A stretch of 64,000 bases of DNA from Longibacter salinarum. GTDB lineage: Bacteria > Bacteroidota > Rhodothermia > Rhodothermales > Salinibacteraceae. The position numbers were made by a program, and so were the translations under genes. Numbering within the stretch: the first letter of the stretch is position 1; every line of letters begins with the position of its first letter. The notes beneath the pieces are model-generated. The model made no database searches. It was not told the DNA's origin and was given only the letters and a program-made list of their open reading frames with translations. The DNA is taken from NCBI RefSeq assembly GCF_002554795.1, contig NZ_PDEQ01000006.1, forward strand, positions 186,001-250,000. Direction: 5' to 3'. This document shows, piece after piece, positions 17,418-32,416 of the stretch.

Positions 17418-20400
17418 CTATCGGATGATGGTCATTTTTCCAGTTCGACTTATCGATCGGTCATCGATCTTCACCGTCAGGCGATACAAGTACATTCCTG
17501 CCGCCAGGTTACCTGCCTCCAGTGTCAGCCGCTGGTTTCTTCCGGCCTGAATGCCGCGTTCCGGTACGCGGATGACGCGTTGTCCCAGGACATTGTAGAC
17601 GTCCATGCTAACGACAGCAGGTATGGGTACGTCAAGCACAATGTCAGTCGACGAATGGAATGGGTTCGGGTAATTCCCTTTCAGCTCGAAGGACGAAGGG
17701 ACGTCCTTCAAAGCACTAAGTGGCAACGACAGTCTGAGCGAGGACACGGTTGAATCGTTGAGAACAAAGGTGGCCCCATCCCTCAGGTCATACGTTCGTC
17801 TGCTGGCTCCGCCTCCAACTTCCTCTGCGGTCCCGGCCGCAGCCTTTCCGGAGACGGATACGGAAATGGGATACGCAGACGCCTGCAGCGAAATCGTGCT
17901 CGTTGTTGTAGTGAGTAGACGACTATCTCCGTCGAAACGGACGTCGAATGAGCCCGTCGGTGGTTTAGGAGGCATCGCATACTGATCCACGATGGCAGGG
18001 TTATTCACGTCCGAGATCTGAAGGACTTGCGTCGCCCCATGTGCATCTTTGAATTGCATCGACATCCGAGGTTCGACTGGTTCGGCATCGGACATCGACT
18101 TTGAGCTCGCGATCGTGGCGGAGGAAGTACAATCGAGCGTGATAGTGATTGGGTCCGAAACACGAACCCAGATCCCCTCGAATGGCACCGTCGATGTCGT
18201 TGTGGTGTAGCTTCCGTTGCTATAACGGTACGCAGTAACCACCTCGGAGGGGAGAGGAACCGTGCAGTTCGGCCCCGAAATCAAATTCCAGCCCGTGTTC
18301 AGGTGCACCCGTACGGATGTAAGCGGGAATCCATCGTACGTCTGGGATCCCCCCGCGGGGGCATTTATCCAGTACCCTTGACCATTCCGGACCTGCGAGA
18401 AGGCGACATATCCACCATTGTACCCCAGGATCGAACCTGGCTCAATGAGGGGAAGCAAGGTCGCCGACGGCACAGCTCCTACGTCATAAGACAGTCCCCA
18501 TAGGGTCCAACCGGTTCCAATTGACTCCGTAAAGCTCGCCAGATCGGCCGGGTCATACGGTGAGAATGTGATCGTCAGGGTTGAGGGAGTCCCCGAAAGA
18601 GTGGTCGAGGACTGAGACTTCATGTTCACGACGTTCGAACTCGACGATGAGCTCATCTCGAACGTGCCCAACGGTAACAGTGCAGGCTCCCACGAAAGTG
18701 TAATTGGATTCGTGCTTCCTTGTACATCTAGTGTCCACTCGAGGGTAGACGGATAGGTTACGCTCGGACGAATATCCGTGAATAGGTCAAAGCTGCCTCC
18801 TATGAATCGCGCGTCGAATGCGTCCACAGGCGGAGTAGGCGGTGCCTTGACATCCTCGCCAGGGTCGAAGCCACTGGTTGCCGTTCCCGACGTGCCGAAC
18901 GAACGTTGAAGGGTTACTGAACCAGAGGTAACGGACATCGAGGCGACGAACGAGTCAGACGTCGGCAAAGGCTCGAACGTTGCCGTGATGAGATAGTCGG
19001 CATTCATGGTGAACTCGATCGGGTTGTTTGTCCCGGTGCGTTCTCCAGACCAACCTGCGAAGTACCATCCGCTTGCCGGTACGGCTTCGACCGACACGAC
19101 AGTGCCTTGATCATAAAAGTCCTGGTTAGGGCTTTTCACGATGCTTCCCTCGCCCACGACCTGCGTATTAAGCGTGTACTGCTCGATTTGCTCGGAGAAG
19201 GTTGCTGTAACAGCAATGTTGGAGTCGACCGTGACCGAAATCGGGTTTGACGTGCCCGTCACATCACCGGACCAGCCAGCGAAAAGCCACCCTGAGCCGG
19301 GCTCTGCAGTGAGTTCGACACTTGATCCAGCATCGTACGATGCTTGATCCGGAGTTTTCGTCACCGTTCCAGTGCCTTGGGTCGAGGTCGACACCGTGTA
19401 TGTGGCGCTTGTGGACTCGGTGAACGTTGCACTAACGGTCACATCGGAGTCCATCGTGACACTGATTGGGTTTGTCGATCCCGTGACATCACCGGTCCAC
19501 TCGACGAACTCCCAGCCGGCTGCTGGCGTGGCCGTGAGCTCGACGATCGTTCCAGGTGCATACGTGCTTTGGTCCGGGGATTGGGTGACCGTCCCGCTTC
19601 CCTGGACATTTGTCGTCAGCGTGTAAGACACCGATGTGTCTTCACTCAAGACTTCGATTGCGCTGACCTTCGCGTTGTTTACTACGCTGGTGAAGTTCAG
19701 AGTCAGGGATCCGTCTGAGACTGTTATCCCTGATACTTCTTTAACGAGCGCCGTTAAGGGGGCTCCCGTCTCTGCGAGGATGTCGAAATCGTCGAGGATC
19801 AGTGAGCCTTCAGCGGATACATCGAATACCCGCTGTCCAGGGTCATTCGTCCCGCGTTCGACGCCGAAGAACAGTTCCGCAAAGTGTAGTCGGACCGTAT
19901 ATGAGCCGTCGCTCACCGGAATGTCGTAGGTCATGTCCCCGTACCGCTCCGTTCGGTAGAGTGGGTCCTCTTGGGTCCCCGCAATCGCGGTGGTGCTACT
20001 TACCTTATATTTGGTTCCGCCGGAGTTGTATTGATCACCGCTCCATACTTCACCCGTGGTCGCTGTGTATGCTGACCCGCCAGTGTTCAGGCGCTGTTCC
20101 GATACCAGCTGGAGGGGCTCATATTTAAGTAGGACCCGGTCAGACGGGTCGCTCTGAGAGCCGGATTGGTCGACAACGACCGCGCTCAGTACGTTGTAGC
20201 CGCCGTCTGCAGAGCTATTCAGCAAGTTGATGGAGATCTCCGCTGTGCCGTTGTTGTCAAGCGTAGCCGTATACTCCTGGACTTGCTTAACACTGTTCAC
20301 ATCATACGGCGAGACCTGGTAGCCACCGGTTGACGGAAGATGGAGGGCAGCCTCGGTCTGCAGGAGTCGAACGGTCTCGCCGGGCGTGCCCGTTACGCGG

Positions 20401-23400
20401 ACGGTCTGCCCAGCGCTGTTCACTGTTGTGGGGAGCGTGGTGATTCCATCAATAGAAATCGATGGCGTTGCGGGTCGACCGCTTTTCGCTATCGCCACGC
20501 CCCCGCTAGTCGTCGAAGATCCATATCCACGGAAGATCTTGCTCGAGTAGCTCAACCCCGTCGAAAATGTCATCTGGACATCTGTGCCCGTAAGCTCAAG
20601 GCCAGAAACATGGGCGGCATTGTTTGGCCCCGGAGGTTCCGTGCCTTTGATGCTTGTTGGATCCACATCGACGGAAAATGAAAAGCTTTCGGTCGGGTCG
20701 AACTCTGTAAACGTCAGTTCGAGCACACCGTACCCGTCGTCCCCATCCGTCCCGTTTGTGGGTTCGACAAAGGAATGTCCCGAAAAGCCTGTTGATGAAC
20801 CTCCGTCTGCAGGGGTCAGTGTCACAGCATCAGTTGCACCGGCCGTTCCGAGTGGATCGAATACAGCGTCGGAAATCAGAGCAGATCGAAGGTCAATACG
20901 GACGGACTGGATGAGCTCACCGTCGGCAGAATCGTTTGTCACAACAAATGCTCCGGATGAGGAAGTTGTGGCGTCGATGGTCCCATTCTGCGTTACGGCT
21001 AAGGTACCAGCCGATGTCTGCGGCGCCTCTTCAATCCGGAAGTACTCGTAATCAGCCTGGAATGTACTTGCACTGCCCCCCGTTGTGGCCATGGTACCAA
21101 CCGCAAGGCCCGTGGGTAGACCGCTGCTGGAAAGCGTATGCGATCCTGTCATCGCGTCCAACAGCGCGCCGGACACCGAGACCGAGGTTCCGAGCTTCAC
21201 CTCAGGATTCGAACCCACTGCATATGCCGCCTGTACCGTAGATGCGTCAGGGTCGATGTAGATAAATAGGCTGACATTCTCTGCTGTATCGACGAGTCCA
21301 TTTACGGGAAATAGTTGGCGCGATACGCTATCATCGGACTCAATTACAAACTCAAGGCCTCCATCGGCTCCCTGCGCGGAAAAGTCAGAACTCGCACTGA
21401 GGGTGAGCGAGACAAAGTTGGATTGGTCTCCTGTACCCACGAATATGCCCTGCTCAAAACCGTCGGTCGGCGCGTTGTTAAAGTACGACCCGATTAGCTG
21501 GGCCTCGACGCGGTATGGTACGCTGGGCGGTGCGATTCCGAATTGGAAGCCATTGCTCAGATTGTTCGTTGTGCCATACGCTGTGCCGCTTCCGACCTCA
21601 ATGATAGAAAACTGTCCGGTTGCTCCGCCCGTCAAGAGGTTTGAGGGCTCAAACATGGACTTGTAGTCGGTCGACCCATTCGTCATGAGCCCAGTAAATC
21701 CGATGCCGCCGGCGAGATTGACGTTCAAATCCGCAAGGAACAGGTCCTTGAAGGCGGGGACATTCAGATTTGTGCCGTTCGATCCATCAACCTGAAACGG
21801 GTCGGTTAGATCGGCTTCGCCGTCGTTGTCGTCATCCGGATCATTCAGATCCGATACGAGAAAGTCCCGGGTGCCACTGTCAATCTCTTCTTGCTCCAGG
21901 GCAGCGTCATTATTGAGCGGGACGTCTGATGCGGAGCATGCGTTGACGCCGTTGTCAATCTCATCTGCGTTTGTGTAATTGTCGCCATCTTCGTCGATCG
22001 TATCGTCGTACGTTCCGCTGCACAGCAGGTCTTCGTCAGGCTCGAGTATAGCAATCGAGCCTCCACCGCCGTACGTCGCAACCCAGATAACACCCGGGTA
22101 GGGTGAGTCGTCTCCTGTAATGGTAAGGTCAAGCGGTGCGGACAGTCCTGAGGCGAGATTGGAGGTCGTAACCACACCTGTTCCCGACGCATCGACATCG
22201 ACATGCTTGATGGTCCCGTCGTTCAGGCTTGCAAGCATGAGGTCGCCTTGCAGGTTGCCCTGCGCCAGGTACTCTGCAATTCCGTTCACGGACAGTTTGT
22301 GCCACGTTGCAAGAGCACCGTCATCATCGCCCGCGCTTCGGTAGTCACACTCAATCGGGTTCGCGGTAGGAACGACTTCGGCCCAGTCCGACGGGAGTTG
22401 GGGGTCCCCAGGCTCGAGCCAAGCGCCGTTCAGATAGAGGCCAGCTTCGTCGTTTCCGCGAACAGGGGCAGGGTGACCACCATAGTAGCCGGCTGTCACC
22501 AGATGGAGATTATCTTTGTTGTTAACCTTGGGATCTCCGCCCGGGCCCATGCTCGTCGAGCCAGGTTCGTTTGGATCGTATGCATTGGTACACGTGCCGG
22601 GGAGATCGCCATCTGGATCGCTGGGATAGTCAGATTCTCCTAATGGATGTCCTCCCCAGCCGGGGTTGGCTCCATTATCAATTACCCACAGGTTTCCGCC
22701 CTCGGTCAGTACGAGGTCATACGCATTGCGCCATCCAGGGGAATAGATCTGGACCGGACTGTCGGTGGTGATTTTTGCCTGGTTCAGTCCGTCATTTCCT
22801 CCGAATGGGTCGTTTTCGTCGGTGTATCCAGAGGAGGGGGACAGGTCCAGTACTTCAACATCTAGTGTTACACCCTGCGGAGACCCCTGGAAAGGCGAAC
22901 CGGCAGCTACATACATCTGGTTGTCGTATACGACGGCCTGCGTCCCGTGCCGACCGGAGTTCATGGGGGAGAGCGTTCGCCAAGTTTCTGTGGCGACGTT
23001 AAAGGCCTCGACCGTGTCGTAGGCATTCGATTGAAGGTTGCTTTCCCCTCCTGCGACGATAATTTCGCCGTTGATAAGGCCTGTAGGGGCAGCTGCACGA
23101 GGCGTAGGGAGATTGCTTGACTCAGCTAGCGTGCTCCATGTCCCTGAGTCGAAGTCGTATACATCCACCTCCGGGACGGTTTGATTGAAGATTGTCCCAT
23201 CGGATGGGTCCGACTCGCGTCCTCCTATCGCGTATAGTTTGTTGTTGTATACCGTTACGAAAAAATGGTCGCGCGCGTGCGGTGCATCAGGAAGCGTTGT
23301 CCATGTGCCGGTAGAGGGATCGAACGCGTCGAATTTAGCAGTCGCCGGGCCATTGTGGCCGTTAGCATTGCCGCCCAAAAGGTAGATCTGCCCGTTATAG

Positions 23401-24593
23401 ACGGCTGCGCCTCCACCGCCACGTCGACGATCGACCGGAATTTCCGCTCCAATCGACCAGGAGTCCGAAGCGGTATCGTATTCGTAAACGTTGGTGGCCG
23501 GTGGTTCATTGCAACAGGCTCCTGTCATTCCCCCGACTGCGTACACAACCCCACCTATTTCTACGGCTTGGAAGTGGTGGAGCGAGCCCGGCCAGCCCGT
23601 ACCGGTTGGCATGGTGGATCCTGCACTCCAAGACGCCGAAACTGGGTCGTAGGTCTGAACAGTTTGAGATTCGCGACTCCCGATCATGTAGAATCGGCCG
23701 TCAACATTGATGAACGACGTTTCATGTCGGTCCTCAATGCCGGCCGCATCCGTCTGCCACACCCCGATTCCGACATCGGTTCGTGTCGGATCGTTCAAGG
23801 TCGGCATGTTATATTTGTACATGCGCCCGTTCGAGTCCGTCTTCGTCGGGAGCGCCTCGATCGTTGCGAGATCGATGGTTAAGACCGCTGCCGAATAGGC
23901 GTATTCCGTTGTTAGAGCAAAATTGTTCGACGGGGCACCAGCGTTCGTGTGGCCGCCGACCGCGACGTAGAGCGTATTGCTGGTCGCGTCCATTTGAATC
24001 CCGTTTACGGAATGATTCTCCTCGGATCTTGGTAGACCTCGCACCAAGTCGATGGCAGACCATGACGTGCCATCGTACGTCAATTTCGTCAACACACCGG
24101 AATTCGTATCGAGATTTGCATCTGAACCGTCGCTTCCTGCTCCTATGCGTGGGTCGCTTGATCCGACGTAAAGCACTGGCAGCGACTCATCTTGCGGATT
24201 CGAGCTAACGTAAATACCGGTTACTTGTCGTTGCCCTTGCCACTCAGACGGTGCCAGCGTCCCATCGTCGTTGTGATTCGGAATACTCTGAATGGCGGTT
24301 ATCGACTCGACCGCTGTCGCTGTGTAGTTGTTAGCTGAACCTTTGGATATCGTGATGGCCTGAATCAGTCCGTTCTGCTGGGCTACGTACAGTCGACCGT
24401 CCGGGCCAAACTGGAGCGAGGTTGGAGCGGAGAGATCGAGGTTTTGCAGCGTGCTGGTAGTAAAGCTTTGCGCTACTGCAGAGACAGGGTATAACAGCAG
24501 CGAGACGAGGAGGAGGAGGAGGAACAGGTATCCATTGAGGGTCGTCGCCCAGGACGTAAAATACCGTCGCGTGACTCTTCGTAAACCGCTCAT
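17418..24593 (-). CDS. Giant secreted multidomain protein with propeller, Kelch, malectin-like, InlB-type repeats and a T9SS sorting domain
   Basis: A 2391-residue secreted protein. A long N-terminal signal segment (GYLFLLLLLVSLLLYPVSAV) ends near AVAQ. A glucose/sorbosone-dehydrogenase-like propeller begins at about residue 45 and is interrupted at about 278-588 by a Kelch propeller with repeated blades such as GGVVYAVGG and GQIYLLGG. The first propeller resumes with NAYDLVLTEGGNLWVIDNG. Acidic DEDGDNYTNADE and DPDDDNDGEADLTDP segments look like thrombospondin-type-3 calcium sites. A malectin-like domain lies at about 1490-1645, followed by three InlB-type repeats (about 1655-1880, about 74 residues each with GW..WSGD..G..NPI). 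The last 90 residues (NYPNPFHSSTDI ... MYLYRLT) are a type A T9SS sorting domain. It probably acts in adhesion or polymer binding at the cell surface; no catalytic activity can be assigned. Confidence 0.9.
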   Translation of the reverse strand: MSGLRRVTRRYFTSWATTLNGYLFLLLLLVSLLLYPVSAVAQSFTTSTLQNLDLSAPTSLQFGPDGRLYVAQQNGLIQAITISKGSANNYTATAVESITAIQSIPNHNDDGTLAPSEWQGQRQVTGIYVSSNPQDESLPVLYVGSSDPRIGAGSDGSDANLDTNSGVLTKLTYDGTSWSAIDLVRGLPRSEENHSVNGIQMDATSNTLYVAVGGHTNAGAPSNNFALTTEYAYSAAVLTIDLATIEALPTKTDSNGRMYKYNMPTLNDPTRTDVGIGVWQTDAAGIEDRHETSFINVDGRFYMIGSRESQTVQTYDPVSASWSAGSTMPTGTGWPGSLHHFQAVEIGGVVYAVGGMTGACCNEPPATNVYEYDTASDSWSIGAEIPVDRRRGGGGAAVYNGQIYLLGGNANGHNGPATAKFDAFDPSTGTWTTLPDAPHARDHFFVTVYNNKLYAIGGRESDPSDGTIFNQTVPEVDVYDFDSGTWSTLAESSNLPTPRAAAPTGLINGEIIVAGGESNLQSNAYDTVEAFNVATETWRTLSPMNSGRHGTQAVVYDNQMYVAAGSPFQGSPQGVTLDVEVLDLSPSSGYTDENDPFGGNDGLNQAKITTDSPVQIYSPGWRNAYDLVLTEGGNLWVIDNGANPGWGGHPLGESDYPSDPDGDLPGTCTNAYDPNEPGSTSMGPGGDPKVNNKDNLHLVTAGYYGGHPAPVRGNDEAGLYLNGAWLEPGDPQLPSDWAEVVPTANPIECDYRSAGDDDGALATWHKLSVNGIAEYLAQGNLQGDLMLASLNDGTIKHVDVDASGTGVVTTSNLASGLSAPLDLTITGDDSPYPGVIWVATYGGGGSIAILEPDEDLLCSGTYDDTIDEDGDNYTNADEIDNGVNACSASDVPLNNDAALEQEEIDSGTRDFLVSDLNDPDDDNDGEADLTDPFQVDGSNGTNLNVPAFKDLFLADLNVNLAGGIGFTGLMTNGSTDYKSMFEPSNLLTGGATGQFSIIEVGSGTAYGTTNNLSNGFQFGIAPPSVPYRVEAQLIGSYFNNAPTDGFEQGIFVGTGDQSNFVSLTLSASSDFSAQGADGGLEFVIESDDSVSRQLFPVNGLVDTAENVSLFIYIDPDASTVQAAYAVGSNPEVKLGTSVSVSGALLDAMTGSHTLSSSGLPTGLAVGTMATTGGSASTFQADYEYFRIEEAPQTSAGTLAVTQNGTIDATTSSSGAFVVTNDSADGELIQSVRIDLRSALISDAVFDPLGTAGATDAVTLTPADGGSSTGFSGHSFVEPTNGTDGDDGYGVLELTFTEFDPTESFSFSVDVDPTSIKGTEPPGPNNAAHVSGLELTGTDVQMTFSTGLSYSSKIFRGYGSSTTSGGVAIAKSGRPATPSISIDGITTLPTTVNSAGQTVRVTGTPGETVRLLQTEAALHLPSTGGYQVSPYDVNSVKQVQEYTATLDNNGTAEISINLLNSSADGGYNVLSAVVVDQSGSQSDPSDRVLLKYEPLQLVSEQRLNTGGSAYTATTGEVWSGDQYNSGGTKYKVSSTTAIAGTQEDPLYRTERYGDMTYDIPVSDGSYTVRLHFAELFFGVERGTNDPGQRVFDVSAEGSLILDDFDILAETGAPLTALVKEVSGITVSDGSLTLNFTSVVNNAKVSAIEVLSEDTSVSYTLTTNVQGSGTVTQSPDQSTYAPGTIVELTATPAAGWEFVEWTGDVTGSTNPISVTMDSDVTVSATFTESTSATYTVSTSTQGTGTVTKTPDQASYDAGSSVELTAEPGSGWLFAGWSGDVTGTSNPISVTVDSNIAVTATFSEQIEQYTLNTQVVGEGSIVKSPNQDFYDQGTVVSVEAVPASGWYFAGWSGERTGTNNPIEFTMNADYLITATFEPLPTSDSFVASMSVTSGSVTLQRSFGTSGTATSGFDPGEDVKAPPTPPVDAFDARFIGGSFDLFTDIRPSVTYPSTLEWTLDVQGSTNPITLSWEPALLPLGTFEMSSSSSSNVVNMKSQSSTTLSGTPSTLTITFSPYDPADLASFTESIGTGWTLWGLSYDVGAVPSATLLPLIEPGSILGYNGGYVAFSQVRNGQGYWINAPAGGSQTYDGFPLTSVRVHLNTGWNLISGPNCTVPLPSEVVTAYRYSNGSYTTTTSTVPFEGIWVRVSDPITITLDCTSSATIASSKSMSDAEPVEPRMSMQFKDAHGATQVLQISDVNNPAIVDQYAMPPKPPTGSFDVRFDGDSRLLTTTTSTISLQASAYPISVSVSGKAAAGTAEEVGGGASRRTYDLRDGATFVLNDSTVSSLRLSLPLSALKDVPSSFELKGNYPNPFHSSTDIVLDVPIPAVVSMDVYNVLGQRVIRVPERGIQAGRNQRLTLEAGNLAAGMYLYRLTVKIDDRSISRTGKMTIIR
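18960..19635 (-). repeat. Three tandem InlB-type beta-repeat units within the giant secreted protein
   Basis: Three consecutive protein repeats of about 74 residues, each running from a T/V-x-G-G-T/S-V-T/V start through SPDQ/TPDQ/SPNQ, a GW core, W(S/T)GD or WSGE, TNPI or SNPI, and ending in a TATF-like strand. They diverge at DNA level, so this is an old protein-level repeat and not a recent DNA duplication. Such modules are common in adhesins. Confidence 0.8.
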
Positions 24594-25278: not shown

Positions 25279-27285
25279 ATGATCCCTCTGTTTGTTCACG
25301 TTCGGCGCCAAGGTGCTCCACTCACCGCATCTCAACTGCGCAAGGAGGCGGCATCGTTGCTCGAGGTCGTCCCCGGCGTGCTGGACGTCAGCTTGGTGTC
25401 TCCGTTTGCTGGCATGTCGTGCGTCCGGCCGGAGGGAGCGACCGAGCGAACGTGGATCGCGGACGATGGGGAAACGGCGTGCGTAGCAGACGCGAGGTTC
25501 GATCACATCGATGACCTCAGAGCCGGATTCCCCGTTTCTCCGAACGCACCCGCTGCGGACATTGTCCAGGCTGCGTATCGGGAATATGATGGAGATGCGC
25601 CTCGATACCTTCCGGGGGATCTGGCCATCGTGATCTGGGACGAACGCAAGGAACAGCTTCTGGCAGCACGGGATCGCATTGGAACGCGCCCGCTCTTCTA
25701 CCAGGAAACGAGCGATGGCATCGTTGTGTCATCCGAGTTGGTCGCGTTTAGGGCCTTTGGCGGGCTGGATCGGGTACGAGAGGACGCCGTAGCCGAATTT
25801 CTTGCAGGTGCCCCACGATTGGCATCCGCAACGATGTACGAGCGGGTCCACCGCGTCCCTCCCGGGCATATGCTCGTGGCGGACGGTGCGGGTACACGGG
25901 TGGAGCGCTATGATGCATTTCACTCCGATGCTTGTTTTCGCCGAAAGGACCCGTCCGATGTTCGGGCTGCTTTTCTTGAGCGGTTCCGGTCGGCCGTTCG
26001 AGTGCGTTGTGATGCCGGAGGTACCCCGGACGAACTGGATGATCGTCCGCCGGCCGTTCTGCTGAGCGGAGGCCTGGATTCGTCGCTCATCGCCTGCTGT
26101 GCACGAGATCATGCCCAGACTCGCGACCGCGGACCCGTCACCGCACTCACGTCGGTCTATTCCCGGGAGGAGTGTTCGGAAATCGACTTCGTGGAGGCCG
26201 TGACCGAAACCGGCGGATTCGACTGGATGCCCGTTCCGGCGGACGATCTCCGTCCAATCGATCATCTTCTGCAGATCGTCTCTCGGCTACGCGAGCCTCT
26301 TTTTGCCCCACATGCCTCCGCCTCGGAGGACCGGTTCGAGGCGGCCCGCGACGCCGGCGTCCGTATCCTTCTGGATGGACACGGAGGCGACGAAGTCGTG
26401 TCACACGGGCCGGTGCGAATGAGAGAGCTGGCCGTGAGCGGTCGCTGGTGGCAGCTCGCGCGAGAGGCGCGGGGAATGGCCGATCCGACGATCCCTCATC
26501 ACGCTGCGCTCCTCTGGGGGTTGGCCGTCTATCGTGGCGTCGGGCACCGGTTGACGCAGAATCTCCCTCACCGCGTTCGAAGCCGAGTTCAGAGTTTGAT
26601 AGGTCGAATGCAGGCAATGGCCTCGCCCGAACGCGGATCACCCACGGCGACATGGCGCGACGTGCTGCGTCCAGACCTCGTGGACGTCTGTTCCGGACGA
26701 GTAGAACAGGCTCGTCGGCTTGACCACAGGGCCGCGTCCACCAGTCACGAAGCCCACCGTCGGCTCGTAAGCGGGACTGACCAGCCGTTTTTTCTAGAAT
26801 CACTGACGCGTCTCGCAGCCTCACACGGCGTGGAATTGCGGTTTCCCTTCTGGGATCGTGACCTGGTGGAATTTTGCCTCTCCCTTCCAGGCGAGTGGAA
26901 GTTAAGGGACGGTTGGGATCGGTACATCCTCCGCGACGCGACGGCGGGCGTCCTTCCCGATGCGATCCGCTGGCGTACGGAAAAAACCAACTTCTTTCCG
27001 TCCTTTCGCGATGGCTTGCGGGCCGAGATTGAGAGCGCCCGTAACCTCATTGAGGACGAATCGAATCCTGCGCGACCGTTCGTTCAGATTGATACGGTCC
27101 GCTCTCTGCTGAACGTGGCGTGCGACCCGGAAACCCATCCCGGCGACCTGCTTCTTCTATGGCGAGTCCTCGTTCTCTTTGCCTGGCTCAAAACGCTTCA
27201 GGATGATCTGGACTCCGTCGCTTCGGGATCCGCCTGTTTTCCGCGCCAAGGCTCACACGCCAACCCTGCTATCCCCACCCCTTGA
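25279..27285 (+). CDS. Lasso-peptide cyclase, asparagine-synthetase-like (lasso protein C)
   Basis: A 668-residue AsnB-family protein. The N-terminal glutaminase-like domain begins MIPLFVHVRRQG and lacks the Cys2 nucleophile of true asparagine synthetase, as expected for lasso cyclases, which activate a side-chain carboxylate with ATP and form the isopeptide bond. The synthetase domain keeps LLSGGLDSSL (about 260-269) for ATP and LLDGHGGDEV (about 364-373). The frame extends to 25174, but the ATG at 25279 gives the expected N-terminus. It abuts the kinase gene and lies 1.2 kb before a matching precursor at 28466. Without that precursor it could have been called a generic asparagine synthase; context makes the lasso role likely. 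Confidence 0.85.
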   Translation: MIPLFVHVRRQGAPLTASQLRKEAASLLEVVPGVLDVSLVSPFAGMSCVRPEGATERTWIADDGETACVADARFDHIDDLRAGFPVSPNAPAADIVQAAYREYDGDAPRYLPGDLAIVIWDERKEQLLAARDRIGTRPLFYQETSDGIVVSSELVAFRAFGGLDRVREDAVAEFLAGAPRLASATMYERVHRVPPGHMLVADGAGTRVERYDAFHSDACFRRKDPSDVRAAFLERFRSAVRVRCDAGGTPDELDDRPPAVLLSGGLDSSLIACCARDHAQTRDRGPVTALTSVYSREECSEIDFVEAVTETGGFDWMPVPADDLRPIDHLLQIVSRLREPLFAPHASASEDRFEAARDAGVRILLDGHGGDEVVSHGPVRMRELAVSGRWWQLAREARGMADPTIPHHAALLWGLAVYRGVGHRLTQNLPHRVRSRVQSLIGRMQAMASPERGSPTATWRDVLRPDLVDVCSGRVEQARRLDHRAASTSHEAHRRLVSGTDQPFFLESLTRLAASHGVELRFPFWDRDLVEFCLSLPGEWKLRDGWDRYILRDATAGVLPDAIRWRTEKTNFFPSFRDGLRAEIESARNLIEDESNPARPFVQIDTVRSLLNVACDPETHPGDLLLLWRVLVLFAWLKTLQDDLDSVASGSACFPRQGSHANPAIPTP

Positions 27286-27290
27286 CACCG

Positions 27291-28223
27291 ATGAATCGAT
27301 ACATCGCGTACGGTCTACGTATTCACTCCGACCTCCCTCTTCCCGAACTCGTCCCGGCAGAAGGCAACGCAGCCCCAGATGTCGTTATTCGCCTGCAGTC
27401 TCTCGACCCGGATCGGGAAGAGATGGACGAACCGGACACAGCATACTTTTCGTGGGAAGAGGTGGGACGGTTCGAGGCGCGTCGGGGAAAACACGTGATC
27501 GCAGATCTAAACGATAATGTCGATCCGGACATCGCACGGCTCCCTCTGTTGGGACTCGTGCTCGGGGCCATCCTCCTTCAGCGTGGGTTTCTGGTGTTGC
27601 ACGCGAGTGCCGTCGTGGTGGACGACGGCGTCGTCGCATTTCTCGGCCACAAGGGATACGGAAAGTCGACGACCGCTGCCGCACTTCACGCGCAGGGACA
27701 TCCTCTCATCGCCGACGACCTTCTCGCGGTGCATGTCCCGCAGGACGGCTCGACGCCGCTGGTCTGGCCGGGTTTTCCCGTACTGAAGCTGTGGCCCGAG
27801 TCGGTTTCGCCCGCAACAGGGACAGGAGCGGAAGCTTGGCCGACCTTGCACGAACGTGTCGAAAAACGTCTTTGCACGCTACCGCCTGAAGTTGCGCCGG
27901 ATACGCCGATTCCGCTCCGTCGACTGTTCGTTCTCAAGCGAGGCGATCAACTGGCGATCGAGCCGCTCGCCCCATCGAAGGCATTTATTACGCTGCACTC
28001 GTTTTCGTATCACTTACCCGATTTACGAGAGCGTCTCCAAACGGCTGACCGCGCCGCAACACCCGTGGCGCAGTACGGAGAAGTCGTTAGCCATGTCCCC
28101 GTGCGTCACCTGGTTCGCCCAGCGGATCTGTCGGCGCTTCCGGAGATGGCGAACAGAATCGTAGATGAGATTCGAGGAGGGAGTTCTTGCGAGAAGCCCC
28201 CAGAAAAAACAGTTGCGGAATAA
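27291..28223 (+). CDS. HPr-kinase-like protein, probable lasso-precursor kinase
   Basis: A 310-residue protein with the HPr kinase/phosphorylase C-terminal fold. The P-loop GHKGYGKST lies near residues 118-126 and is followed by the HPIADD-like PLIADDLLAV (about 139-148), whose paired Asp are typical of HprK. Lasso clusters of the paeninodin type contain such kinases, which phosphorylate the C-terminal Ser of the precursor; the precursor here ends in Ser. An in-frame TTG at 27282 would overlap the cyclase stop, but the ATG at 27291 is preferred. It lacks the N-terminal domain of true HprK. Phosphorylation of the local precursor is inference. Confidence 0.82.
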   Translation: MNRYIAYGLRIHSDLPLPELVPAEGNAAPDVVIRLQSLDPDREEMDEPDTAYFSWEEVGRFEARRGKHVIADLNDNVDPDIARLPLLGLVLGAILLQRGFLVLHASAVVVDDGVVAFLGHKGYGKSTTAAALHAQGHPLIADDLLAVHVPQDGSTPLVWPGFPVLKLWPESVSPATGTGAEAWPTLHERVEKRLCTLPPEVAPDTPIPLRRLFVLKRGDQLAIEPLAPSKAFITLHSFSYHLPDLRERLQTADRAATPVAQYGEVVSHVPVRHLVRPADLSALPEMANRIVDEIRGGSSCEKPPEKTVAE

Positions 28224-28465
28224 ACCAAGAACGGAAGGGGCGATGGAGGGATGGAGCATACGATACCGGTTCGGCACCACGATCTTGGCTCCCTATTCCC
28301 TTCAGACCGCATTTACCCATCCGCCGATGAGGTAATTCACTATGGCATAGGGTCGATTTGACTCATGCCCGTCAAACTCGGGCGCCGGTGTCGTTTTCGT
28401 GCCGCGCCTGATCGAGAAGGCCGTTTCGGCGGTCTTCGTTTCTTCTCACAATCACTCGCCTTCCA

Positions 28466-28624
28466 ATGGATAACAAGAAGAGCAAGTCGTATGAGCCCCC
28501 CCGCTTGAGTGAACTCGGGCGCGTGGAGGACATCACCGCTGCTGGTCAAAATGGCTATTGCCTGGATGACTCGTTTCAAGCGGGGACGCCCTTCGACGAC
28601 CTGACGTTCTCGGTGTGCAGCTAA
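28466..28624 (+). CDS. Lasso-peptide precursor (lasso protein A), 52 residues
   Basis: A short open frame starting ATG at 28466 encodes a 25-residue leader and a predicted 27-residue core. The leader reads YEPPRLSELGRVEDITA and fits the lasso pattern YxxPxLx3Gx5Tx at every position (Y9, P12, L14, G18, T24). Thr24 at -2 predicts a core starting AGQNGYCLDD, so Ala1 could form an isopeptide with Asp9. One Cys (core 7) would lie in the ring and another (core 26) beside the C-terminal Ser27. No Shine-Dalgarno is visible. It lies 242 bases after the kinase and 30 bases before a strong terminator. Gly27 as core residue 1 with Asp8 or Asp9 is an alternative. Confidence 0.85.
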   Translation: MDNKKSKSYEPPRLSELGRVEDITAAGQNGYCLDDSFQAGTPFDDLTFSVCS

Positions 28625-28654
28625 CCTGAGCAAGGTTACTGGGCAAAAAGGGTA

Positions 28655-28691
28655 AACCTCCCGGTGGCTACGAAAGCGCCGGGAGGTTTTT
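28655..28691 (+). terminator. Intrinsic terminator after the lasso precursor
   Basis: A ten-base-pair stem AACCTCCCGG/CCGGGAGGTT with a 14-base loop is followed by TTTTT. It is 30 bases past the precursor stop. The left flank has an A-rich tract, so it can also serve the convergent acyl-CoA dehydrogenase gene that stops at 28716. Confidence 0.88.
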
Positions 28692-28715: not shown

Positions 28716-30497
28716 TCAGTCGTCCGACGTGTCGATAAGTTCGGTGAGCCGTTCATCTGCACGCGACGCTCCGTCACCGGACGTCGAGTGACATTCGTAG
28801 AGGGTCGGGCAATTGAAATCCCACACCAGCACGTAGGCGCCATGGTGGTCAACGTCTGTCACGTGTGAGATTCGCTGTGCCGCGAGGCGCTCTGCCGCGG
28901 CCGCGGATCGACCATCCTGTTCGTTATCGAGCGCCCACTGGGCATGGCTGCAGGTGAGCGCCAGTTCGAGCGAGTTGCCGAGCGTGAGAGCAAATCGACG
29001 AGCACCGGCCTGCATGGCGTCTTCGTCGCCCATCGCTTCTTTCAGCCAAACGACAGCGTCCCGGAAGGCGCGCACGGCCACGGCCATCGCTTCCTGCAGG
29101 CGAGGGGCCTGAACGCCACGTGCACATCGCTGAAATTCTTCCTTGAGCGGCGCAACGCCTCCGACCGACTGGATCGCTCGCAGGGTGTCGAGGGACAGCA
29201 CGTTGGTCGTGCCTTCCCAGATCGGTAGCACCTGAGCGTCGCGAAGCAGAGTTGGAAGGCCGGTGTCTTCAACGTAGCCCGCTCCGCCGAATGCTTCGAG
29301 GAGTTCGCTTACGGCGGGAACGACCTGTTTGCCCGTGGTGAGCTTTGTGATCGGCGTAAGGAGTCGAAGAAGGCCCTGCTGCTCACCTGTCAACGTGCCA
29401 TGCTCGGCTTTCCCCAAAAGCTCAGCGACCCGAAACGAGAGATGCAGCATTCCTTCATAGGTTGCCTGCACATCGGCAAGGGTCTCTTGATGGAGCGGAT
29501 GGTTGATTATGGTATCGCCGAAGGCTTCTCGTTTCCGCGCATAATCCCGGGCGAGGGCGAGTCCCCGCCGCACGAAGCTCGTCGCCGTCACCGCGTTCCA
29601 GGTCCGCGTCACGTTGAGCATCGGCGCAATGTTGCGCGTCCCGTTCTTCAGCTCACCAACGGGGTAGGCGCGCGCGCCATCGAGGTCGAGCTCCGCGGTC
29701 GGCAGTTTGCGCGTCCCCAGTTTGTCTTTGAGCCGGTTGACGGCGATACCGTTGGCAAGCGTATCGTCTTCACGGATTGGCACGTAAAACAGGGCGAGGC
29801 CGCGACCACCATCCGGGTTTCCCTCCGGTCGGGCAAGTGCGAGCGCCATGTTTGCCGTGATCGCGCTCGTGAACCACTTTCGACCGTAGAGCCGCCACGT
29901 TCCATCTTCGTCCTGTCGCGCGGTCGTTTTCGACCGACCGACATCCGAGCCACCGGATAACTCGGTCATCCATTGACCCGAGGTCCAGAAGGTCGCTGGG
30001 TCGCGACTCGTCAGGTGCGGAACGGCCTTCTCAATGAGGTCCTCATTGCCGGAGGCGAGAAGCGTGCTGGCCGCGCCATCCGTCATCGCGAGGGGGCAGC
30101 CGTACATGTCCGTGGAGGGAATGAAGAGATGCGCGAGTGCGAACTGATGAACGCGACTGCAGTCGCCCAGCGTGCCCTCGTAGCCTGCAGCTACAACGCC
30201 ATACTCTGCCGCGACGCGCTCAGCGCGCGTCCACACATCCGTGACCTCGATCTCGTCGACGCGATCCCCCCATGCGCCCCACCGCGTCAGAACAGGTTCG
30301 TTTTGCAGGTCGTTTAGAAACAGATCGTACAGCTCGTTTCCCGCGAGCTCGCCGAGTGACCGAAGCTCTCCCTCGACGCGTTCAAGCTGATCGGCTGAAA
30401 GCGTGCGAGCGAGATAGCTTACCAGCGCGCGGTCATTGTCATACTGATTTCCGAGTGCGGGCGGCTCCTGTGTAACGTCAGCATCGGAGGGAGTCAT
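28716..30497 (-). CDS. Acyl-CoA dehydrogenase, AidB-like
   Basis: A 593-residue FAD-dependent acyl-CoA dehydrogenase of the long AidB-like type. GQWMTELSGGSDVG (about 171-184) is the hallmark FAD/substrate loop and matches AidB. RRGLALARDYARKREAFG precedes the last helical domain, and LPIWEGTTNV (about 423-432) holds the catalytic Glu position. A C-terminal extension beyond standard ACADs is present, as in AidB. A clear paralogue lies just upstream at 30695-32416. Substrate is unknown; AidB itself is linked to alkylation stress, while similar long ACADs act on acyl-CoA. It ends at the shared terminator. Confidence 0.9.
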   Translation of the reverse strand: MTPSDADVTQEPPALGNQYDNDRALVSYLARTLSADQLERVEGELRSLGELAGNELYDLFLNDLQNEPVLTRWGAWGDRVDEIEVTDVWTRAERVAAEYGVVAAGYEGTLGDCSRVHQFALAHLFIPSTDMYGCPLAMTDGAASTLLASGNEDLIEKAVPHLTSRDPATFWTSGQWMTELSGGSDVGRSKTTARQDEDGTWRLYGRKWFTSAITANMALALARPEGNPDGGRGLALFYVPIREDDTLANGIAVNRLKDKLGTRKLPTAELDLDGARAYPVGELKNGTRNIAPMLNVTRTWNAVTATSFVRRGLALARDYARKREAFGDTIINHPLHQETLADVQATYEGMLHLSFRVAELLGKAEHGTLTGEQQGLLRLLTPITKLTTGKQVVPAVSELLEAFGGAGYVEDTGLPTLLRDAQVLPIWEGTTNVLSLDTLRAIQSVGGVAPLKEEFQRCARGVQAPRLQEAMAVAVRAFRDAVVWLKEAMGDEDAMQAGARRFALTLGNSLELALTCSHAQWALDNEQDGRSAAAAERLAAQRISHVTDVDHHGAYVLVWDFNCPTLYECHSTSGDGASRADERLTELIDTSDD

Positions 30498-30694: not shown

Positions 30695-32416
30695 CTAGGA
30701 GCGGAAGAGCGACTGGGCCGTGGAGTCCTGGCCAAGCATCCGTGCATCGTAGGTTCGGCGCGCGGCGATGTCGTCGATGCCCTGGGTGGCAAAGTGCTCG
30801 ACGACCGCGACGGCGCGATTTCCTTCGCGCGGCATTGCCCACTGCGCGTGACGGGCGAGAAGGGCCAGTTCGAGGCTTTTGCCAATGGTCATGGCGAAGC
30901 GGCGTGCGCCCGCTTCGGTGGCATCCGGCGACTCCTCCAGCGATTCCGCCAGCCACATGACGGCCGACCGGAAGGCCGACTGTGCGGACTCGACGGCCTG
31001 AACGAGGACAGGCGATTCAACGGCCTCGCGGCACCGGTTCAGTTCGTTTCGGATGGCTTTCAGGCGGCGTTCGCGACGAAGCGATTGGAGTGCTATGAGG
31101 GACATGACGTTCGTCGTTCCCTCCCAGATCGTGAGTGCGTGGACGTCGCGGAGCAAGAGGGGAATGCCTGTTTCCTCGACGTAACCGGCCCCGCCGAAGG
31201 CTTCCACGACTTCCCCGATCACCTGCACCGACTGCTTCGCCGTCAGTAGTTTGACGATGGGCGTGAGTGCGCGAAGTAGCTGGACGCCGTCGTCATCCAG
31301 TTCACCGGCTTCAAGCTCGCCCAGCAGTTCGACCGTCCGGAACGTCAGGTGGAAGGCTCCTTCCATCGTCGACTGAAGCGAGGCGAGCGTATCGTAATGA
31401 AGGGGTTTCTCGATGATCGGCGTGCCGAAGGCCTCGCGCTTCCGGGAGAAGTCGCGGGCCAGTGCCAGGCCGCGACGCATGAAACCGGTCGCCATCACGG
31501 CATTCCAGACGCGCGCGATCTCGACCATCGGCGTCAGGTACCGCGTGCCATGACGCGTTTCGAGAGGAAGCGCCTTCGCTCCGTCGAGACGAATCTCGGA
31601 AACGGGAATCTTTCGGGCGCCGAGGTTCTCCTTGATTCGGTTGACGCCAATCCCTTCGTTCGGAGGCGTGTCGGGATTCTCGCGAATCGGGACGTAGAAG
31701 AGACCGAGTTCGTCGTGATTGCTTTCGCCGTTTTCGGCGCTCTTCCCAGGACGTTCTGGATGCGCCAGGACGAGAGCTGCATTCGCAGCGCTCGAGGAGG
31801 TGAACCATTTTCGGCCGTGGAGGGACCACGTGCCGTCGTCATTTGGCACAGCTCTCGTTTTGATCCGGGAGAGATCCGTTCCGCCGGCCTGTTCGGTGCG
31901 CCACTGCCCGCATGTCCAGATGGATTCCGGATCGCGGGAGAGAAAGTGTTGGACGGCCTCGGCCGTGTCGCGGGGCTGCCCGAGATCAAGCAGCGTACGC
32001 ACCGCCCCGTCGGTCGTCGCCATCAAGAATCCGATCATGTCGGTGGATGGCGTAAACAGGTAGGCTTTCGCCATCTGATGGACGCGACTGTACTTGCCGT
32101 GCTCCCGCTCGTAGGCCGTGGCGATAATCCCGTGCTCCGCGGCTACCTCAATGGCGCGTTTCCAGCTATCCGTCAGCTCGACATGATCGATCCGGTTGCC
32201 GGTAGCATCCCACTGAGTTAGCTCAGGGCGAGACGTGCGATCTGACAGCTGTAGATCGTAAAGCTCGCCCCCTGCCTTTTCGCCCAATGCTTCGAGATCG
32301 GGGCGTACGTCGTTGAGCACGTTGTCCGGAAGAAGGCGCTCCAGATATCCCTGGAGAACGCGGTCATCGGAGAACTGATTGTCGAGTTGTGCAATTTTGG
32401 AGGCGTTAGGAGGCAT
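30695..32416 (-). CDS. Acyl-CoA dehydrogenase, AidB-like (paralogue of the neighbouring gene)
   Basis: A 573-residue FAD-dependent acyl-CoA dehydrogenase, collinear with the 28716 product along its whole length. GQWRTEQAGGTDLS (about 169-182) corresponds to the FAD loop, MRRGLALARDFSRKREAFG precedes the C-terminal helices, and LTIWEGTTNV (about 427-436) carries the catalytic Glu. The loop change from WMTELSGGSD to WRTEQAGGTD suggests a shifted substrate pocket. A gap of 197 bases separates the two paralogues. Likely a beta-oxidation-type dehydrogenase of unknown chain preference. Confidence 0.9.
   Translation of the reverse strand: MPPNASKIAQLDNQFSDDRVLQGYLERLLPDNVLNDVRPDLEALGEKAGGELYDLQLSDRTSRPELTQWDATGNRIDHVELTDSWKRAIEVAAEHGIIATAYEREHGKYSRVHQMAKAYLFTPSTDMIGFLMATTDGAVRTLLDLGQPRDTAEAVQHFLSRDPESIWTCGQWRTEQAGGTDLSRIKTRAVPNDDGTWSLHGRKWFTSSSAANAALVLAHPERPGKSAENGESNHDELGLFYVPIRENPDTPPNEGIGVNRIKENLGARKIPVSEIRLDGAKALPLETRHGTRYLTPMVEIARVWNAVMATGFMRRGLALARDFSRKREAFGTPIIEKPLHYDTLASLQSTMEGAFHLTFRTVELLGELEAGELDDDGVQLLRALTPIVKLLTAKQSVQVIGEVVEAFGGAGYVEETGIPLLLRDVHALTIWEGTTNVMSLIALQSLRRERRLKAIRNELNRCREAVESPVLVQAVESAQSAFRSAVMWLAESLEESPDATEAGARRFAMTIGKSLELALLARHAQWAMPREGNRAVAVVEHFATQGIDDIAARRTYDARMLGQDSTAQSLFRS

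Follow-up and report, generated by a model that had tools for sequence, protein, structure and literature searches.

We analyzed a 64-kb stretch of Longibacter salinarum DNA, called the window here at its full length, in which positions 25279-28691 hold a lasso-peptide locus lying entirely on the plus strand: a cyclase gene (C), a precursor kinase gene (K), a short precursor gene (A) and a terminator, in that order. The initial annotation had proposed a lasso-peptide locus with all its parts on one strand, and both points stood, the first being backed by profile matches, phylogeny and homology of the core. Its description of the locus as compact was misleading. None of the genes for the leader-binding protein (B1), the leader peptidase (B2), the nucleotidyltransferase (N) and the exporter (D) adjoins the C-K-A locus, and all four lie on another contig of the same genome.

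Table. Features of the C-K-A locus, in window coordinates.
Feature	Position	Strand	Basis
C, lasso cyclase, AsnB-like, no Cys2, SGGLDSS ATP motif, 668 aa	25279..27285	+	NF033535 match; tree placement
K, HPr-kinase-type precursor kinase, 310 aa	27291..28223	+	HprK-related matches; His-Lys-Asp-Asp; model; tree
Hairpin with T-rich tail between K and A; possible attenuator (weak)	28416..28437	+	Terminator scan
A, precursor, 52 aa	28466..28624	+	NF033521; leader motif
A leader, 25 aa, ending ...DITA, Thr at -2	28466..28540	+	NF033521; unique motif match
A predicted core, AGQNGYCLDDSFQAGTPFDDLTFSVCS, 27 aa	28541..28621	+	Register with Paracoccus, Mesorhizobium, Priestia and G006 cores
Intrinsic terminator downstream of A, T-run	28654..28689	+	RNA fold -29.2 kcal/mol, z -2.54

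As first described, the cyclase is an AsnB-like protein without Cys2. Its N-terminus, MIPLFVHVRRQGAP, carries Ile at residue 2, versus Cys in E. coli AsnB, and starts in register with the MSGIVGVYHLQGDP of its relatives; the SGGLDSS motif is kept. The best model for C was NF033535 (E=3e-103, versus 8e-52 for asparagine synthase). In a maximum-likelihood tree that took in E. coli AsnB and AsnB-like neighbors, C fell inside a 26-row lasso-cyclase group (96/90) drawn almost entirely from lasso clusters, with E. coli AsnB outside, so that it clustered with lasso cyclases rather than with true asparagine synthetases. A scan of the genome contigs for relatives of C returned distant relatives only.

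The leader of the 52-codon frame, YEPPRLSELGRVEDIT, fits YxxPxLx3Gx5T at all fixed positions, as the initial annotation had stated. A was the sole six-frame match to this motif in the 64 kb, and no match arose in 60 Markov-simulated windows. The frame also scored 25.2 bits on the NCBI lasso-leader model NF033521 (lasso_leader_L3), above its cut-off of 19. The paeninodin-family precursor model NF033524 gave no match to A (P0002); the Priestia peptide introduced below scores 57.7 bits.

We compared the predicted core with those of precursors found beside C and K in other genomes. With the leader ending at the slash, the window reads TA/AGQNGYCLDDSFQAGTPFDDLTFS-VCS, Paracoccus (L119) TH/GNSRGSALDNTFQAGTPVSQLTFS, Mesorhizobium (L016) TQ/GQSSGWSLDATFPTGTPFGDLTFS, Priestia (L121, annotated as paeninodin family) TM/LGGSGEYTDAAFPTHTPKGDLTFES and the genome G006 TA/GSQDGAFTDAAFPAKTPADELTFSD. 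The alignment, which takes in relatives from the host's family, is gapless, with 13 of 24 core positions identical to Paracoccus and 13 of 24 to Mesorhizobium, Priestia being less close. Local core scores were 60-70 against Paracoccus, Mesorhizobium, G006 and a further genome, G017, and the next best was 26. When Thr is set at -2, Asp stands at core position 9 in five out of five aligned cores, which favors a nine-residue A1-D9 ring. The G017 core, having one more residue before Asp, fits this register inexactly. A core start at Gly27 (ring G1-D8) is less likely, because Thr would then be at -3 and the acceptor of the homologues is at position 9.

The predicted core carries a putative ring from A1 to D9 with Cys7 inside it, Cys26 in the tail and Ser27 at the C-terminus, and it keeps the ring acceptor and the TP..LTF motif of the family. 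For a lasso core starting at Ala26 the calculated monoisotopic mass is 2839.17 Da, or 2837.16 Da once the disulfide is formed, 2917.13 Da when phosphate is added to that and 3079.18 Da with a further hexose. Two traits are peculiar to it: one Cys in the ring with one in the tail, which is the class III pattern, and the residues VCS after LTFS, again ending in Ser. The Paracoccus and Mesorhizobium peptides end at the LTFS Ser itself. The suggestion that the peptide may be undescribed held in part: no other occurrence of the exact peptide was found, but the core belongs to a family that spans several phyla (Bacillota, Alphaproteobacteria and the host lineage). The small frame is also conserved in relatives, one with a similar core lying beside a cyclase and a kinase in both G006 and G017.

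K (P0003) matches Hpr_kinase_C at 24 bits, below the cut-off of 33.3. The earlier reading of it as HPr-kinase-like was nevertheless borne out by its catalytic residues (H104, Walker-A K125 and an Asp-Asp pair, in the motifs LHAS, the GHKGYGKST P-loop and ADD) and by an AlphaFold model (pLDDT 78) that matches PEPCK/HprK crystal structures. In the tree its neighbors were the G006 and G017 lasso kinases (SH-aLRT 98). Characterized lasso kinases require His-Lys-Asp-Asp and act on a C-terminal Ser (PMC9266682); this is the site used by PadeK and PsmK, while BsfK phosphorylates Ser3 (PMC10368454, PMC9266682, PMC8498205). The window precursor ends in Ser (...FSVCS), and its lasso peptide is probably phosphorylated.

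A hairpin with a T-run was recovered right after A, where a terminator had been noted earlier. The simple terminator scan did not list 28654-28689; that scan, from which the hairpin between K and A comes, found 3 sites versus 3.7 expected by chance.

The genome (G000; 99.76% complete, 22 contigs) contains a single B2, at G000:C3:438629 (NF033537, 80 bits, cut-off 33). It stands in a cassette on contig C3 that runs ABC transporter (D), NTP_transf_5 nucleotidyltransferase (N), B2 and PqqD-type B1 (at G000:C3 439096) and is without C, A and K. A second lasso locus, G000:C5:152005-156402, comprises a cyclase (P0006), a precursor (P0012, MKDSKKYESPRLKVHGTVADLTAAGRTNPGSDCQVYGDDLRGSSMNANCWGNQS) that scores above the lasso-leader cut-off and also ends in Ser, the protein P0007 and a kinase (P0008), with no B2. 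P0007 (L010:8980-10194, minus strand, on contig C5), encoded between this precursor and the kinase, has 404 aa, with a phosphoribosyltransferase-like domain fused to a PqqD domain at the C-terminus. Clear homologues of the fusion were found only in lasso loci of G012 and G009, and it may supply the C5 locus with its own leader-binding domain, perhaps with an added activity. Contig positions place the loci at least 252 kb (window to C3), 325 kb (window to C5) and 231 kb (C3 to C5) apart, or on separate replicons. We rejected a contig-end artefact as the source of the missing B2, since none of the loci comes closer than 79 kb to a contig end.

G017 carries all seven genes side by side, as C-A-K-D-N-B2-B1. 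The C3 transporter grouped with that of G017 (96), and the C3 N fell in a supported set (95) with N of G017, G006, G003, G010 and G009; B2 and B1 grouped, with weaker support, with those of the G017, G006, G003 and G010 lasso clusters. The contiguous genes of G017, together with the presence of kin of the window K and of the C3 genes in the same genomes, argue that the pieces belong together. By gene position, an unlinked B2 recurs in at least four related genomes. B2 of G006 lies by itself on an 11.7-kb contig amid unrelated genes, with C-A-K-N-B1 elsewhere. C and B2 are 1.7 Mb apart on the single contig of G031, and the distance is about 0.9 Mb in G026 and about 0.7 Mb in G040. The B2 of these last three genomes belongs to a different clade, which makes it less certain that the lasso cluster employs this enzyme.

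Other arrangements were seen among the genomes compared. G026 (L106:7411-10284) and G040 (L107:7208-10078) carry nucleotidyltransferase-B2-kinase-B1 cassettes of a separate clade, with no cyclase, which possibly represent another peptide-modification system. A lone precursor in G033 (L112:8769-9038, contig C23) with no other lasso gene nearby is very similar to the precursor of the lasso cluster on contig C13 of that genome, and is a dispersed copy. Three different precursors, all ending in ...DCS, surround one cyclase and one kinase in G003 (L063:6620-10291) and G010 (L064:1605-5294). A Calothrix metagenome-assembled genome (L015:19088-20944) has three precursor-like frames in tandem, nearly identical in their leaders but not in their ends, then a second lasso-type kinase. 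Plasmid pHALXA01 of Halopiger xanaduensis (L120:3469-11209) bears a haloarchaeal lasso-type cluster with B1, B2, C, kinase and nucleotidyltransferase, an ABC transporter nearby and an unannotated precursor-like frame (L120:8871-9032).

We consider it likely that C, K and A of the window belong to a lasso pathway whose D, N, B2 and B1 are encoded at a distant locus, on the same chromosome or on another replicon. The gene set A-B1-B2-C-D-K-N, known from pseudomycoidin and bsf, would then be split in three, with a single B2 processing two precursors in trans: being the only B2 in the genome, it must serve both if both are matured by B2. The simplest reading of the sequences would be that one ancestral cluster came apart. 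We are more tentative, and lean slightly toward doubt, about the fuller proposal that one trans-acting B1/B2/N/D cassette matures two precursors, each encoded at another locus with a cyclase and a kinase of its own, and that the window product is a phosphorylated peptide with a ring-tail disulfide.

Paeninodin, pseudomycoidin and bsf (PMC8498205, PMC9266682, PMC10368454) serve as models for a sketch of the likely steps. Once A is expressed and translated, B1 would bind its YxxPxL...T leader. K would phosphorylate it, with the C-terminal Ser27 as the most likely site and Ser24 of LTFS, where some homologues end, as the alternative; in bsf the kinase is sped up by B1 (PMC10368454). B2 would cleave after the Thr-Ala leader end, and C would activate Asp9 with ATP and join it to Ala1 around the threaded tail. 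N-type proteins yield glycosylated phospho-lasso peptides (PMC9266682, PMC8498205), and N may here add a sugar to the phosphate; D would export the product, and Cys7 of the ring and Cys26 of the tail could then form a class III-type disulfide. The single C3 B2, perhaps along with B1, N and D, would also serve the second precursor at C5.

Several observations weigh against this account. C scored 346.6 bits on NF033535, and P0006 likewise fell under the 525-bit cut-off, although this is an "exception" model and 525 bits is the NCBI naming cut-off with no biological requirement behind it. The tree did not resolve the place of C within the lasso cyclases, and constraining C with G006 and G017 was neither supported nor rejected (approximately unbiased test, AU p = 0.14). 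A genome of the same genus (G001, 83% complete) has no counterpart of the locus. Many kinase-bearing relatives lack a C-terminal Ser, which makes the phosphosite uncertain. A simple 14-mer comparison allowing at most one mismatch found no upstream motif common to the three loci, and a shared regulatory element there was dropped as a candidate. The window and C5 leaders are no more similar than leaders in general and so give no sign of tuning to one B1; co-adaptation of the two to a single B1 was unsupported, neither leader being the other's best match.

The alternative that survives best accepts the lasso locus as real and has the leader removed independently of the C3 B2, either because another protease trims A or because C uses an already trimmed core. 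Pseudomycoidin offers a precedent, as it is reported to form in vivo without leader and leader peptidase (Zyubko 2019), and the lasso clusters of G026, G040 and G031 have only the faraway B2 of a different clade. We nonetheless judge it unlikely. The C3 B2 passes the lasso-B2 cut-off, belongs to the clade of the relatives' lasso clusters and is present with B1, N and D, and the leader motif is fully kept, Thr at -2 included, suggesting recognition by B1/B2. A little less probable again is decay, in which the cluster fell apart, leaving C, K and A of the window no longer productive. The cluster is indeed split, and C sits on a long branch (1.51) in the cyclase tree. However, C, K, A, B2, B1, N and D all retain open frames, and catalytic motifs where these are known; the core has kept its acceptor and family motif, a terminator still follows A, and a second pathway in the genome would need the same B2. 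That no lasso peptide is made, with C a true asparagine synthetase or other amide-forming enzyme and the small frame a product of chance, draws on the NF033535 score of C and is already contradicted by the missing Cys2, the grouping with lasso cyclases, a precursor above the leader cut-off with zero chance matches, and a core conserved across phyla beside C, K, B1 and B2, and we regard it as very improbable.

Upstream, the locus adjoins a gene (17418-24593, minus strand) for a 2391-aa secreted-type protein in which Kelch-like repeats and a C-terminal sorting-type domain were recognized by eye. Directly downstream are two tandem related genes, acyl-CoA dehydrogenase-like by eye (28716-30497 and 30695-32416, minus strand).

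Lasso-peptide mining generally seeks A, B and C side by side. Given a known gene set and a widespread core family, the system is not a new class. As far as our searches reach, what is new is the spread over three loci with just one B2, the Cys pair together with a kinase, and the phosphoribosyltransferase-PqqD fusion. Searches of the open-licence literature found nothing relevant on lasso peptides in Rhodothermus or Salinibacter or on unlinked B genes, which does not imply absence. If our account is true, this would be a modular, genome-dispersed lasso system, whose parts would be overlooked, or taken as incomplete, in mining based on clusters. A peptidase shared by several cyclases would be a natural case for testing how lasso enzymes locate one another and their substrates, as well as a ready source for mix-and-match maturation. 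The core ties Bacillota, Alphaproteobacteria and the host lineage into one peptide family, and the tail extensions past LTFS make the choice of kinase site testable.

Among known systems, pseudomycoidin (psm, Bacillus pseudomycoides) and paeninodin (pade) resemble the window in C, A, an HPr-type K with His-Lys-Asp-Asp and a C-terminal Ser, and their N and split B1/B2 are also present in the window genome. The core of the Priestia paeninodin-family cluster has D, F, TP and LTF in common with the window core. Unlike pseudomycoidin and paeninodin, the window locus is without B1, B2, N and D, and its peptide has Cys7/Cys26 and three residues past LTFS; lacking a match to NF033524 it is not filed as a member of the paeninodin family, and it appears to work like one. 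The Paracoccus MC1862 and Mesorhizobium denitrificans clusters share the register and the presence of C and K with the window, but their genes are contiguous with B1-B2 and their cores end at LTFS and have no Cys. The bsf cluster of Bradymonas sediminis (PMC10368454) has the same full set A-B1-B2-C-D-K-N and a YxxPxL leader, but forms one cluster, with Ile at -2, a G1-D8 ring and phosphorylated Ser3, where the window system has Thr at -2, a predicted A1-D9 ring and dispersed genes. Class III peptides (BI-32169, 9401-LP1) have one ring and one tail Cys, as in the predicted window core, where a disulfide may form; the 9401-LP1 cluster differs in having A-D genes only (PMC9266682). Finally, unclustered lanthipeptide leader proteases provide a case in which the cluster for a ribosomally synthesized and post-translationally modified peptide also depends on a protease encoded elsewhere (PMC8960859); the peptide class is another one, and the protease of the window genome is a dedicated lasso B2 accompanied by B1, N and D.

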